DNA from: a virus | IMG/VR virus record: IMGVR_UViG_3300042922_000352 | Location: 1 to 29,475 of that record | Reading direction: 5' to 3' (one strand) | DNA: 29,475 nucleotides | In this document: in pieces, positions 24,425 through 27,846 of the stretch | Numbering within the stretch: the stretch's first letter is position 1 | Layout of the letters: the number at the start of each line of letters is the position of its first letter | Translations under genes and position numbers: made by a program | The notes under the pieces: generated by a model | Database searches by the model: none | Seen by the model: the letters and a program-made list of their open reading frames with translations, nothing else | Told to the model about the DNA's origin: nothing

Positions 24425-24594
24425 TGTCTTTCACTCTTGTACCAGTATTGATTGTGAATATCTTTGTAAAACAAATATCTTACGTTTACATTGGTATGTC
24501 CTCTTGTAATACTGCCTATGTACTTTAATTCTTCGGGCTTGTCCTTTTCTGTAAAGCTCGTAGCATTGTTCCAGGCGATATCTAGTTCGTTCAT
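24406..24594 (-). CDS. Hypothetical small protein
   Basis: 62 aa, ATG at 24594 overlapping the stop of the Spo0A-C gene (ATGA). Acidic N-terminus (LDIAWNNATSFTEKDKP), then basic and aromatic (VRYLFYKDIHNQYWYKSERQ). Its last codons lie inside the terminator-like hairpin, so its mRNA end would be complementary to the small antisense RNA. No function recognised. Confidence 0.6.
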   Translation of the reverse strand: MNELDIAWNNATSFTEKDKPEELKYIGSITRGHTNVNVRYLFYKDIHNQYWYKSERQEKLPV

Positions 24595-24923
24595 GCTTTC
24601 TTTACCTCATAGACAATGTACGCAATAAAATTCTTGTTTGTTTCCCCTCCAGAGTCATGTCCGAAATATTTCATCAGGACTTCTTTTTCTGCTTTTTCGA
24701 AAGCTGTTATTATCCCGTGTCTAATTGCTCTTTCTACTTTTGTTTTGCTGCTATCGCATTCATTTCCGATTATTTCGTATAACCCTCCTGCTTTGCATAT
24801 GTAATCAGCTTTGCTTTCATCTGCAACGATTAGCTCTACGGCTTTTTTTATAAATTTGAATCCTAAGTTCCCCATCGGTATTCTTAGCTCTTTTAAAATT
24901 TCAACAATTTTATTTTCTAGCAT
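24591..24923 (-). CDS. Spo0A C-terminal domain protein (no receiver domain)
   Basis: 110 aa, ATG at 24923 with AAAAGGAG 7 nt upstream (a longer version to 24950 overlaps the previous gene). The whole protein follows the DNA-binding domain of Spo0A: an N-terminal helix pair (ILKELRIPMGNLGFKFIKKA), the recognition region KTKVERAIRHGIITAF matching Spo0A SRVERAIRHAIEVAW, and the FGHDS...NKNFIAYIVYEVK end matching the domain's last helix. There is no receiver. Role is inferred: competing for or adding to Spo0A-box regulation, or controlling the phage. Confidence 0.88.
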   Translation of the reverse strand: MLENKIVEILKELRIPMGNLGFKFIKKAVELIVADESKADYICKAGGLYEIIGNECDSSKTKVERAIRHGIITAFEKAEKEVLMKYFGHDSGGETNKNFIAYIVYEVKKA

Positions 24924-25167
24924 GTTTTTTCTCCTTTTCTTTAATAACACATCCTTGCGCTATTTCCGCATATGTGAAAGATTCTAATGTTTTAAAATCT
25001 TCTCCCTTTCCAACAAGAACAATATTAGGATACTTTTTAATGATTTTTGCTTTGGTTCTCGTTGTACAACTTGTCCTGCCGTCAGTTTCTTTTCCTTCTT
25101 TAACGATAATGACTCTGTCGCCTTCTCTTAGTATTTTGCTATTTTCTCTTAATTCTTTTGATGTCAT
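24910..25167 (-). CDS. Hypothetical small basic protein
   Basis: 85 aa, ATG at 25167 with AAAGGAG 8 nt upstream. Contains EGDRVIIVKEG and TKAKIIKKYPNIVLVGKGEDFKTLESFTYAEIAQ, a small beta-barrel-like pattern (SH3-like), with a Lys-rich C-terminus. Function unknown. Second to last before the HUH/Spo0A-C block in reading order. Confidence 0.65.
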   Translation of the reverse strand: MTSKELRENSKILREGDRVIIVKEGKETDGRTSCTTRTKAKIIKKYPNIVLVGKGEDFKTLESFTYAEIAQGCVIKEKEKKHARK

Positions 25168-25443: not shown

Positions 25444-25608
25444 CTAGGCAGATTGTTTGTTGTCCCGAAACATAGCTATATCTTTTAATGCGCTCTTGTA
25501 AATAGAAAATGCTTTTCTCTCTTCTGGTCCTAGCATGGAAAGAATTTCTGCAACTTCCATTCCTTCTTGTATGTCCTGCTCTGTTAGATGCTTATAGGAT
25601 CTACTCAT
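25444..25608 (-). CDS. Small helical early protein, first gene of the early operon
   Basis: 54 aa, ATG at 25608 with GGAG 8 nt upstream; an in-frame extension to 25626 lacks an RBS. Helical, charged (QDIQEGMEVAEILSMLGPEE, then SIYKSALKDIAMFR). It is the first gene after the leftward promoter and lies beside the repressor, so it may act in the switch, but no Cro-like helix-turn-helix is obvious. Confidence 0.65.
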   Translation of the reverse strand: MSRSYKHLTEQDIQEGMEVAEILSMLGPEERKAFSIYKSALKDIAMFRDNKQSA

Positions 25609-25649
25609 GGTATCAACTCCTTTCATATGGGTTCTATTTGTGTTCTAAT

Positions 25650-25663
25650 CACATTATAATGTG
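25650..25663. promoter_or_regulatory. Palindromic operator 1
   Basis: CACATTATAATGTG, a perfect palindrome, overlaps the -10 of the leftward early promoter. Half-site CACATT recurs in operator 2; likely repressor binding site. Confidence 0.7.
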
Positions 25664-25681
25664 CTCCAATGTCATTGTCAA
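25653..25681 (-). promoter_or_regulatory. Early leftward sigma-A promoter
   Basis: TTGACA (25681-25676), 17-bp spacer, TATAAT (25658-25653), exact consensus. Operator 1 covers the -10. Confidence 0.85.
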
Positions 25682-25695
25682 GCATTATTTTGTGA

Positions 25696-25724
25696 TTGAC
25701 ACACATTTTTTAATGTGATATTAT
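25696..25724 (+). promoter_or_regulatory. Repressor promoter (rightward)
   Basis: TTGACA (25696-25701), 17-bp spacer, TATTAT (25719-25724). The spacer contains operator 2, so the repressor can control its own promoter. Confidence 0.8.
25702..25717. promoter_or_regulatory. Palindromic operator 2
   Basis: CACATT and AATGTG arms separated by TTTT, the same half-site as operator 1 with 4 instead of 2 central bases, placed in the repressor promoter spacer. Confidence 0.6.
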
Positions 25725-25748: not shown

Positions 25749-26138
25749 TTGAATGTGAATAACAGGATTAAGTTATTAAGGAAAGATTACTTAAAATTAA
25801 CTCAGGAACAATTTTCCGATGCTATATCTATAAGCAGAGCTAACTTGGGTAGTATAGAGGTCGAGAGAATAAATGTTACTGATAGGGTTGTTCAAGATAT
25901 TTGTAGGGAATTTAATGTAAGTGAAGTATGGCTTAGAAATGGTGAAGGTGAAGTATTTATCTCTTTCCCGATAGAAGATGAATTTTTTCGAGCTGCTGCC
26001 GAGTTATCTAAAGAGGGTGACGAATTTATAATCGCAGGAGTTGTTGAGTACTGGAAATTAGACAAAGATAGCCGTTCTATTTTAAAAAATTATTTATTAC
26101 ATATTGCTGATAGAATAAAAAAAGAAGAGCAGTCTTAA
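25749..26138 (+). CDS. CI-like phage repressor (XRE family), no peptidase domain
   Basis: 129 aa. Start taken as TTG at 25749, where GGAGGTGA ends 7 nt upstream; GTG at 25755 is an alternative. Residues about 1-65 are an XRE helix-turn-helix (NRIKLLRKDYLKLTQEQFSD, then AISISRANLGSIEVERINVT). The remaining 60 residues (FPIEDEFFRAAAELSKEGDE..., KLDKDSRSILKNYLLHIAD) are helical and show no S24 protease motif. It lies between divergent promoters and shares its intergenic operators. Role: keeps lytic genes off; must be removed by something other than self-cleavage on induction. Confidence 0.85.
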   Translation: MNVNNRIKLLRKDYLKLTQEQFSDAISISRANLGSIEVERINVTDRVVQDICREFNVSEVWLRNGEGEVFISFPIEDEFFRAAAELSKEGDEFIIAGVVEYWKLDKDSRSILKNYLLHIADRIKKEEQS

Positions 26139-26157
26139 TTCTGCTCTTCTTTTTTTA
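26121..26157. terminator. Bidirectional intrinsic terminator
   Basis: AAAGAAGAGCAG and its complement (26121-26132, 26141-26152) around an 8-nt loop, with T-tracts on both strands. It ends the repressor transcript (stem overlaps its stop) and the convergent 42-aa gene. Confidence 0.85.
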
Positions 26158-26283
26158 TTGAAGATATTTAAGGATTGTGTAAACTTTAATAAGAACCGTC
26201 TTTTCCGTGGTCTCATCTGTTAATTTATGTATGAGTTTCTTATACTCTTCCAGTTCATTCTCTGGCCTTTTCTCCTTCTCCAT
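26155..26283 (-). CDS. 42-aa protein under LexA control (candidate antirepressor)
   Basis: ATG at 26283 with AGGGGG about 5 nt upstream, TAA at 26157-26155 inside the bidirectional terminator. The peptide (begins MEKEKRPENELEEYKKLIHK, ends VYTILKYLQ) is helical and charged with a hydrophobic C-terminus (KTVLIKVYTILKYL), a possible protein-binding surface. It has its own promoter carrying a LexA box and lies convergent to the repressor gene. Together these suggest an SOS-induced protein that acts on the repressor, like Tum of phage 186 in principle; the function is inferred and no homologue is named. Confidence 0.65.
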   Translation of the reverse strand: MEKEKRPENELEEYKKLIHKLTDETTEKTVLIKVYTILKYLQ

Positions 26284-26325
26284 AATAACCCCCTGTGCCT
26301 TTGTTAACTGTCATTTGTTTCCTTT

Positions 26326-26354
26326 ATTATAGAACGTTTGTTCGTATTTTGCAA
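26326..26354 (-). promoter_or_regulatory. Sigma-A promoter overlapped by a LexA (SOS) box
   Basis: TTGCAA (26354-26349), 17-bp spacer, TATAAT (26331-26326). The spacer ends in GAACAAACGTTC (26343-26332), an exact GAAC-N4-GTTC Firmicute LexA core flanked by C on one side, directly next to the -10. LexA bound there would block RNA polymerase. Confidence 0.78.
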
Positions 26355-26427: not shown

Positions 26428-26445
26428 TGTCCGCACGTGCGGACA
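26428..26445 (-). terminator. 18-bp perfect palindrome, probable terminator of the XRE gene
   Basis: TGTCCGCACGTGCGGACA, GC-rich in an AT-rich gap. As RNA on the minus strand it folds as a 7-bp stem with ACGT loop followed by ATTTTCT, a plausible short terminator after the XRE gene. A protein-binding operator is an equal alternative because the palindrome has no spacer. Confidence 0.55.
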
Positions 26446-26490: not shown

Positions 26491-26697
26491 TTATTTATAC
26501 TCTGATTCGAATAGTTCTGTTATTCTTACCCCTAATGCCTTTGCAATGGCTTCTAGTTCAATTACATTAACAGGCGATTTCCCTTTCTTCGGATTCTCTA
26601 TATCGCCTATTCTTGATTTCTTAATCCCTGTAAGTTTTACTAATTTTCTCGTAGATATTCTCTTTTCTGTCCGTATCTTTCCTATGTTTATTTTCAA
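26491..26697 (-). CDS. XRE family regulator
   Basis: 68 aa, TTG at 26697 with AAGGTGAT upstream. A nearly minimal helix-turn-helix: IGKIRTEKRISTRKLVKLTG, then IKKSRIGDIENPKKGKSPVN, and a last helix (IELEAIAKALGVRITELFES). A small Cro/CI-type regulator. It is divergent from the membrane-protein/integrase operon, so it may control that operon or the lysogeny switch. Confidence 0.85.
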   Translation of the reverse strand: MKINIGKIRTEKRISTRKLVKLTGIKKSRIGDIENPKKGKSPVNVIELEAIAKALGVRITELFESEYK

Positions 26698-26832: not shown

Positions 26833-26861
26833 AATTCTATAGTTAAGTGGGAGGTTGTATT

Positions 26862-27275
26862 ATGCATGACGATAAAGATATAAGTAATAAGAGTCAAATG
26901 TTGACTTTGGTTTTATTGTTATTGTTTGGTCGATTGGGGTTGCATAGGTTTTATGTAGGAAAATATTTTACAGGTTTAATTTATTTATTGGTTGGTAGCA
27001 CATCTATAGTATTAGATGTTATAGGTTTTCAATTTGCTTTAATCGCTCAGGTTGTTTACTTTTTATTTTTTATCTTGGATGTATATGCTCTGTATTCTGA
27101 TAGTTTTACAGATTCCAAGGGGAGATTATTAACAAGTGCTAAAGCATTGGAATATGACACATACAAAGAAAGAGATCGAATGTTGTTCGATGATAAGCTC
27201 AATAAAATATTGGTAATTTTATTTGGATTTGCTTTTTATATCGTTTATTTAATAGTTGTAAATTTCGTATTGTAG
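26862..27275 (+). CDS. TM2 domain membrane protein
   Basis: 137 aa, ATG at 26862 with GGGAGG 7 nt upstream (a longer version from 26847 lies over the RBS). The TM2 signature is visible: LLLLFGRLGLHRFYVGKYFTGLIYLLVG (G-x-HRFYVGK with two hydrophobic helices), a further hydrophobic stretch (ALIAQVVYFLFFILDVYALY) and a C-terminal one (NKILVILFGFAFYIVYLIVV). About four membrane segments. Position between switch and integrase, in a lysogen-expressed operon, suggests lysogenic conversion or superinfection exclusion; this is inference. Confidence 0.8.
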   Translation: MHDDKDISNKSQMLTLVLLLLFGRLGLHRFYVGKYFTGLIYLLVGSTSIVLDVIGFQFALIAQVVYFLFFILDVYALYSDSFTDSKGRLLTSAKALEYDTYKERDRMLFDDKLNKILVILFGFAFYIVYLIVVNFVL

Positions 27276-27285
27276 GGGGTGTATT

Positions 27286-27846
27286 ATGGGTCTGTTCGGT
27301 AAATCACTTGACGATATGGCAAGGAAAGAAATGGAGTTGCGGAAAGGTTATGTTTCTCGTACTCCTGGTGAAGAGGTCAATGTCAAGATTGATGATCTTA
27401 GAAGTGATGATATAGTAAAAAATGCAAATATTGAGGTTGCCAAGTTGAATTATGGCATTGCTAGGTTGACTAAGTATGCATTGTATGTATTAGTTGCATT
27501 GATTTTTATTGCTGTGTTGCTTACTGTGGTCGAAAATGCAATAAAACCTAAACCTGATTATGAATTATTTCAACGAAATGCGGGTATATATCTTGAGCTG
27601 AATGGAGCAGTAAGTGATTACAGATTTATAGATGACGATATCGTCAGTGTTACAGTCGATGATTCATGGTTCAATAGTTCCAAGTTATCAAAGGTTCGAT
27701 TTTGTACTGCTATAAGAAATGGTTTGACTGCATTCGGTCTTAAGTATCACGTTGTGGAAGATGATTATATCTATACTGTTTTTTACGATAGTGCAGGTGT
27801 TAAGGTTGCGAAGCCTAATTGGGATAGTTTTGATATTTTGTATTGA
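27286..27846 (+). CDS. Single-pass membrane protein with extracellular domain
   Basis: 186 aa, ATG at 27286 with AGGGGGTG. N-terminal ~60 residues hydrophilic (LFGKSLDDMARKEMELRKGY), transmembrane segment about 62-83 (TKYALYVLVALIFIAVLLTV), then about 100 residues with a Tyr/Asp-rich beta pattern (YRFIDDDIVSVTVDDSWFNSSK, RFCTAIRNGLTAFGLKYHVV). Ends 16 nt before the integrase. Not a domain I recognise; probably a surface or exclusion protein co-expressed with the TM2 protein. Confidence 0.7.
   Translation: MGLFGKSLDDMARKEMELRKGYVSRTPGEEVNVKIDDLRSDDIVKNANIEVAKLNYGIARLTKYALYVLVALIFIAVLLTVVENAIKPKPDYELFQRNAGIYLELNGAVSDYRFIDDDIVSVTVDDSWFNSSKLSKVRFCTAIRNGLTAFGLKYHVVEDDYIYTVFYDSAGVKVAKPNWDSFDILY

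Follow-up and report, generated by a model that had tools for sequence, protein, structure and literature searches.

A 42-amino-acid (aa) gene lying tail-to-tail with the repressor gene of a temperate Clostridia phage is, with a probability of about 0.7, an SOS-switched antirepressor that would inactivate the repressor through its C-terminal domain (CTD). The gene lies in a 29,475-bp virus record from IMG/VR, analysed over its whole length and referred to here as the window, whose gene content is that of a temperate tailed phage: structural, ParA-/ParB-like and cytosine methylase genes can be read from the translations, together with a large serine integrase. Recurrence in dozens of diverse Clostridia phages suggests that dormant phages of these hosts probably often use this cassette to wake after DNA damage. 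A preliminary description of the window, which had treated the gene as a single case, underestimated this scope, as the peptide belongs to a widespread family.

Organization of the lysogeny switch and the repressor

The phage repressor gene (25749-26138, plus strand) encodes a 129-aa protein with a helix-turn-helix (HTH) domain (pLDDT about 97) and three C-terminal helices (residues 75-88, 92-102 and 106-128). HTH_19/HTH_3 are the only domains recognized in this protein, its C-terminus being helical. Structural comparison gives only weak matches, driven mainly by the HTH; among them are SinR (1b0n), DdrO and the phage repressors in 9iaq and 9sf2, the AimX entries. The start at 25749 is ambiguous, the candidates being GTG 25731, TTG 25749 and GTG 25755; the last of these fits, because MN-R-IK begins most relatives. 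No Peptidase_S24 domain is found in the repressor or elsewhere in the whole record, and no Peptidase_M78 (ImmA) domain is found beside the repressor or elsewhere in the record, which bears out the earlier reading of a repressor of about 129 aa with neither an autoprotease nor an ImmA-like partner.

A presumed early operon diverges from the repressor, its first gene lying at 25444-25626 (minus strand). The divergent switch region between them (25639-25724) contains an early promoter, TTGACA-N17-TATAAT, with 12/12 consensus matches (25681-25653, minus strand), and a repressor promoter, TTGACA-N17-TATTAT (25696-25724, plus strand). Palindromic repeats such as CACATTATAATGTG (25650-25663) are probable operators, and repeated AATGTGAT/CACATT palindromes surround both promoters. 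Lysogeny switches are usually built in this way, with the repressor and early operon diverging around such palindromes. Within the early operon, the product of a gene at 24591-24950 (minus strand) contains the C-terminal DNA-binding domain of Spo0A (PF08769, E=3.9e-18) and may give the phage access to host sporulation or to Spo0A boxes. The region 26847-27846 (plus strand), which separates the switch from the serine integrase, encodes a membrane protein with a TM2 domain and a second protein, of 186 aa, for which a membrane segment is predicted; a weak match to PHROG 1510 falls in the same region, and these genes are candidates for lysogenic conversion or superinfection exclusion.

The 42-aa gene and its LexA-type promoter

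The candidate antirepressor gene (26155-26283, minus strand) begins with ATG and encodes MEKEKRPENELEEYKKLIHKLTDETTEKTVLIKVYTILKYLQ, a peptide whose predicted helices (residues 7-24 and 28-41) form a two-helix hairpin. It is convergent to the repressor gene, the 3' ends of the two genes being 16 nt apart, and is preceded by the Shine-Dalgarno sequence GGGGG (26289-26293, minus strand). Its promoter combines a -35 element TTGCAA (26349-26354, minus strand), a 17-nt spacer and a -10 element TATAAT (26326-26331, minus strand), with 10/12 consensus matches. Within the spacer and touching the -10 element lies the LexA-type (SOS) box CGAACAAACGTTC (26332-26344, minus strand; GAACAAACGTTC at 26343-26332), and the exact GAACN4GTTC motif occurs as a single copy in the window (0.21 expected by shuffling). 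The sequence and motif scans confirm this promoter and its exact box as originally reported. The bidirectional terminator that had been noted between the two genes (26114-26159) is equally evident as a perfect 19-bp inverted repeat (26114-26132/26141-26159; dG -25.1 kcal/mol, z -6.4); since it carries both an A-tract and a T-tract, it can serve the repressor as well as the 42-aa gene.

GAACN4GTTC is the SOS consensus of B. subtilis, and a search of Clostridium for the forms GAACN4GTTT/C detected them there (PMC4234289). Among genomes with related modules, 13 of the 14 located lexA genes carry 1-4 boxes (at most one mismatch) within a few hundred bases upstream. Because the host lexA genes of relatives bear the same box, the earlier suggestion that host LexA could switch the 42-aa gene is well supported, and the sequence-level case for such control is strong, the box being assigned through the hosts of relatives. 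A recognizable LexA box is missing in about a third of family members. Two of these members have TGTGGA-N3-TCCACA at the corresponding place, and palindromes other than the LexA box, for example TGTGGAATATCCACA and TGTGGATTTTCCACA, sit where the box would be at loci L209 and L287 (also L213, L214 and L220). Palindromes at this place suggest that another regulator may control the same type of antirepressor, and the input promoter may be exchangeable. A separate proposal, that box-less peptides are driven by the operator of the phage repressor itself, was rejected, as no shared operator was found.

Upstream of the LexA-box promoter, in the same orientation as the 42-aa gene, lies a gene for a small Cro-like HTH protein (HTH_26; 26491-26697, minus strand) ending in ...ITELFESEYK; 18 of 74 related loci have a gene for such a protein in the same position and orientation relative to the candidate antirepressor gene. 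An 18-bp palindrome, TGTCCGCACGTGCGGACA (26428-26445), separates this gene from the promoter, and nine loci (L121, L132, L185, L207, L218, L252, L290, L304 and L306) are grouped with it. Of 100 short-repressor loci, 10 have TGTCC-N8-GGACA, often in the form ATTTGTCC-N8-GGACACTT, in the 450 nt that follow the repressor (44 kb in all), compared with only 2 copies in 560 kb elsewhere; this palindrome may represent an operator or a terminator of unspecified kind.

Recurrence of the cassette in Clostridia phages and genomes

A repressor-first search, in which boxes were ignored during collection, yielded 80 viral loci from a repressor alignment, whereas the repressor sequence on its own had retrieved nothing from the viral collection. 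Of the 39 distinct loci whose repressors are at most 140 aa long, 11 have an exact GAACN4GTTC in the 300 nt downstream of the repressor and none has one upstream (0.05 expected from Markov-chain shuffles). When one mismatch is allowed, the counts rise to 18 downstream and 4 upstream, with 2.9 expected, and beside longer repressors the box is at background (1/28).

A box-first scan of IMG/VR for CGAACN4GTTCTATAAT recovered, among many unrelated genes, similar short ORFs at L010, L019, L030, L074, L094, L103, L108, L115 and other loci, with those at L010, L019, L030, L094, L103, L108 and L115 convergent to a short HTH repressor. The same scan (L003-L120) also contains LexA-box promoters directly before other phage genes, among them those for a serine recombinase (L107), a tyrosine integrase (L102) and an HTH regulator (L020). 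A peptide-first profile search of 120 genomes of one family returned 14 matches, 8 of them facing a non-S24 repressor, with 2 of these 8 already in the training set.

When viral and GTDB repressor loci are pooled, a convergent family ORF of 29-62 aa is present in 74 distinct loci, and a LexA-type box (0-1 mismatch) lies upstream of it in 47, a count biased upward because boxed ORFs were preferred among several candidates; the unbiased box count is that of the 39 short-repressor loci (11/39). The search for the same peptide beside related repressors, which the preliminary description had proposed, places the family tail-to-tail with non-S24 repressors in all 74. A family profile trained without the window places its peptide at the top of 1,674 small ORFs (E=1.2e-6; next 0.15), and a profile trained on box-less peptides alone recovers 30 of the 47 boxed ones.

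The hosts of relatives are Lachnospiraceae, Oscillospiraceae and other Clostridia. Blautia phage Montmirail encodes a 39-aa family member annotated as hypothetical, and Terrisporobacter phage TPDSL_ph2 carries a 37-39-aa member with an exact box, at which the annotated ORF is on the opposite strand. An unannotated candidate peptide is present in three of four Clostridioides phages checked, in two of them beside a one-mismatch box; Clostridioides phages phiCD08011 and Hain-Saunders-2022a have unannotated members with one-mismatch boxes. Members with no recognizable box occur in Clostridioides phage HGP05 and in Butyrivibrio phages Closwp03 and Idris, and no family ORF was seen in Faecalibacterium phage FP_Epona when looked for.

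Peptide conservation and coupling to the repressor C-terminal domain

Codon comparisons between related peptides reveal 269 synonymous and 87 non-synonymous single-base differences, and the synonymous fraction of 0.76, against 0.19 under neutral change, indicates purifying selection, with the qualifications that the pairs are non-independent and that the 55% identity cut-off somewhat favours this result. AlphaFold2 with the family alignment predicts a two-helix hairpin with a mean pLDDT above 90 over residues 11-40, and the peptide is soluble and charged, with no membrane segment. The window peptide has no useful match in Pfam, NCBIfam, PHROGs or a tblastn search of phages, and Foldseek with the peptide model returns no match; the family came to light only by way of the repressor and the box. 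PHROGs 19640 and 32810, both of unknown function, match four relatives and one relative, respectively.

The related repressors are mosaics of DNA-binding and C-terminal domains, and the peptide follows the latter. Mean peptide similarity is 0.56 in the 13 pairs with similar CTDs and different N-terminal domains (NTDs), and 0.08, equal to the background of 0.08, in the 374 pairs with similar NTDs and different CTDs. When nearest neighbours are compared over the 74 loci, the one of the peptide coincides with the one of the CTD in 21 and with the one of the NTD in 7. Two contigs of one genome, L357 and L358, have nearly identical peptides and CTDs and different HTH domains, a natural domain swap that predicts cross-induction of both elements. 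Such co-travel is the pattern that would be expected if the peptide interacted with the CTD. The same pattern could arise from physical linkage, as the 3' end of the repressor gene is next to the peptide gene; in a control for linkage, too sparse at 18 usable loci to settle the point, the next gene outward (HTH) does not follow the CTD (rho 0.005). Alignment of the peptide with the repressor profile by hhalign gives a weak match at residues 91-125 (probability 6.7%), and peptides outscore shuffles against CTDs. An origin of the peptide as a recent duplicate of the C-terminus of its own repressor was rejected, since cognate pairs are no more alike, and score no higher, than non-cognate ones.

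Proposed mechanism and alternative explanations

The antirepressor role put forward in the preliminary description gains support from co-travel with the CTD, purifying selection and the lack of any other recognizable protease that could inactivate the repressor, and is considered likely on this comparative evidence. In the lysogen, host LexA bound to the spacer box would hold the 42-aa gene off, while the non-cleavable phage repressor would hold the divergent early promoter off. Upon DNA damage, RecA-driven cleavage of LexA would allow the hairpin protein to be made; this protein could then bind the helical CTD and disrupt the repressor dimer or oligomer, and the early operon would be released once the repressor is inactivated. 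Speculatively, the most likely mode of binding would have the hairpin engage the C-terminal helical interface of the repressor in the manner of SinI on SinR.

Family members at L349, L350, L352 and L354-L356 lie away from such repressors, and small SOS-induced proteins are, as general knowledge, frequent in bacteria; both points would suit a small effector under LexA control that has nothing to do with the repressor, such as a toxin, a cell-division inhibitor or another SOS accessory. This explanation is nevertheless unlikely in view of the conserved tail-to-tail pairing with short non-S24 repressors but not with longer ones, the co-travel with the repressor CTD, and a hairpin that is soluble and charged and has no membrane segment. 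CTD binding would yield the same co-travel if the peptide were instead a co-repressor or modulator that stabilizes or tunes repression and perhaps resets lysogeny after mild damage, a role for which Mor with CI in TP901-1-like switches provides an analogue. SOS induction of such a factor would, however, work against the phage leaving a damaged host, and the record shows no alternative means of repressor inactivation (no S24, no M78), which renders a stabilizing role decidedly improbable.

The close convergence of the two genes also raises the idea that the transcript acts and not the peptide, with convergent transcription or antisense RNA lowering the repressor after SOS induction; the strong terminator separating both genes, and a protein under purifying selection while promoters diverge, make this very improbable. 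A chance combination of a random GAACN4GTTC with a spurious short ORF can draw on the 0.21 exact boxes expected per window, yet it is contradicted by the dozens of distinct loci and by the E-value with which the window peptide joins the family, and deserves almost no weight.

Implications for prophage induction

A broader reading is considered tentatively, at somewhat less than even odds: a hairpin of about 35 aa and the CTD may be exchanged as a unit, independently of the HTH and of the input promoter, and serve as the standard SOS-induction device of many Clostridia prophages. In such an arrangement, the DNA-binding domain would set immunity and the input would be LexA in most cases and a different palindromic operator in others. 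Prophages that differ in immunity and share a CTD type would then cross-induce, and the coupling of peptide and CTD predicts which prophages of a polylysogen can trigger one another. The response of gut-Clostridia prophages with non-cleavable repressors to DNA damage, as caused by antibiotics or inflammation, is largely unexplained, and the family offers a concrete, testable and mostly unannotated switch. With about 35 aa for the peptide and 125 aa for the repressor, such pairs may also be handy as minimal switches.

Relation to known antirepressor systems

Repressors that lack a protease rely on an SOS-activated peptidase or an antirepressor for inactivation (PMC10432266). ImmR/ImmA of ICEBs1 and its relatives likewise involves a non-S24 HTH repressor that needs inactivation in trans, whereas the window record has no ImmA-type M78 protease. 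The TF-smORF modules (Silpe et al. 2023, PMC10432266) resemble the present cassette in that a small antirepressor inactivates a phage repressor without proteolysis; those studied differ in having SOS-independent inputs and autoproteolytic repressors.

SinI/SinR of B. subtilis offers a parallel in architecture, in that a short XRE repressor is targeted at its C-terminal helices by a small antirepressor of two helices (PMC3163267), but SinI is controlled by Spo0A and not by LexA, and the SinI Pfam profile has no match at E<=0.1 among 45 family members. AimX of arbitrium phages (9iaq, 9sf2) is, by entry titles, a small antirepressor in complex with a phage repressor of the short XRE type; its control is by arbitrium and not by LexA, and no chain of either entry is among the matches of the peptide profile at E<=10.

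In the literature surveyed, with subscription journals partially covered, no account was found of this family, of a LexA-controlled Clostridia-phage antirepressor or of the convergent cassette, and an earlier description is possible. The window peptide has no match naming Tum, AntC or GfoA in Pfam, NCBIfam or PHROGs, the family being set apart from these proteins by description. GfoA, GftA and GfhA of the Gifsy phages share the SOS logic, a short non-cleaved repressor and a small LexA-boxed antirepressor gene (PMC3121763), but occur in Gram-negative hosts, use another LexA operator and lie next to dinI near replication genes without being convergent to the repressor. Tum of coliphage 186 and AntC of N15 are also LexA-controlled antirepressors directed against repressors without an autoprotease (PMC3121763, PMC10432266); Tum has 146 aa and is partly DinI-like, whereas the family described here comprises two-helix hairpins of 30-50 aa encoded in a tail-to-tail cassette, with Clostridia as hosts. 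Tum, AntC and GfoA/GftA already provide examples of this switch logic in phages of Gram-negative bacteria (PMC3121763), and the present family is a widespread, unnamed one of the Tum/GfoA-GftA/AntC kind.
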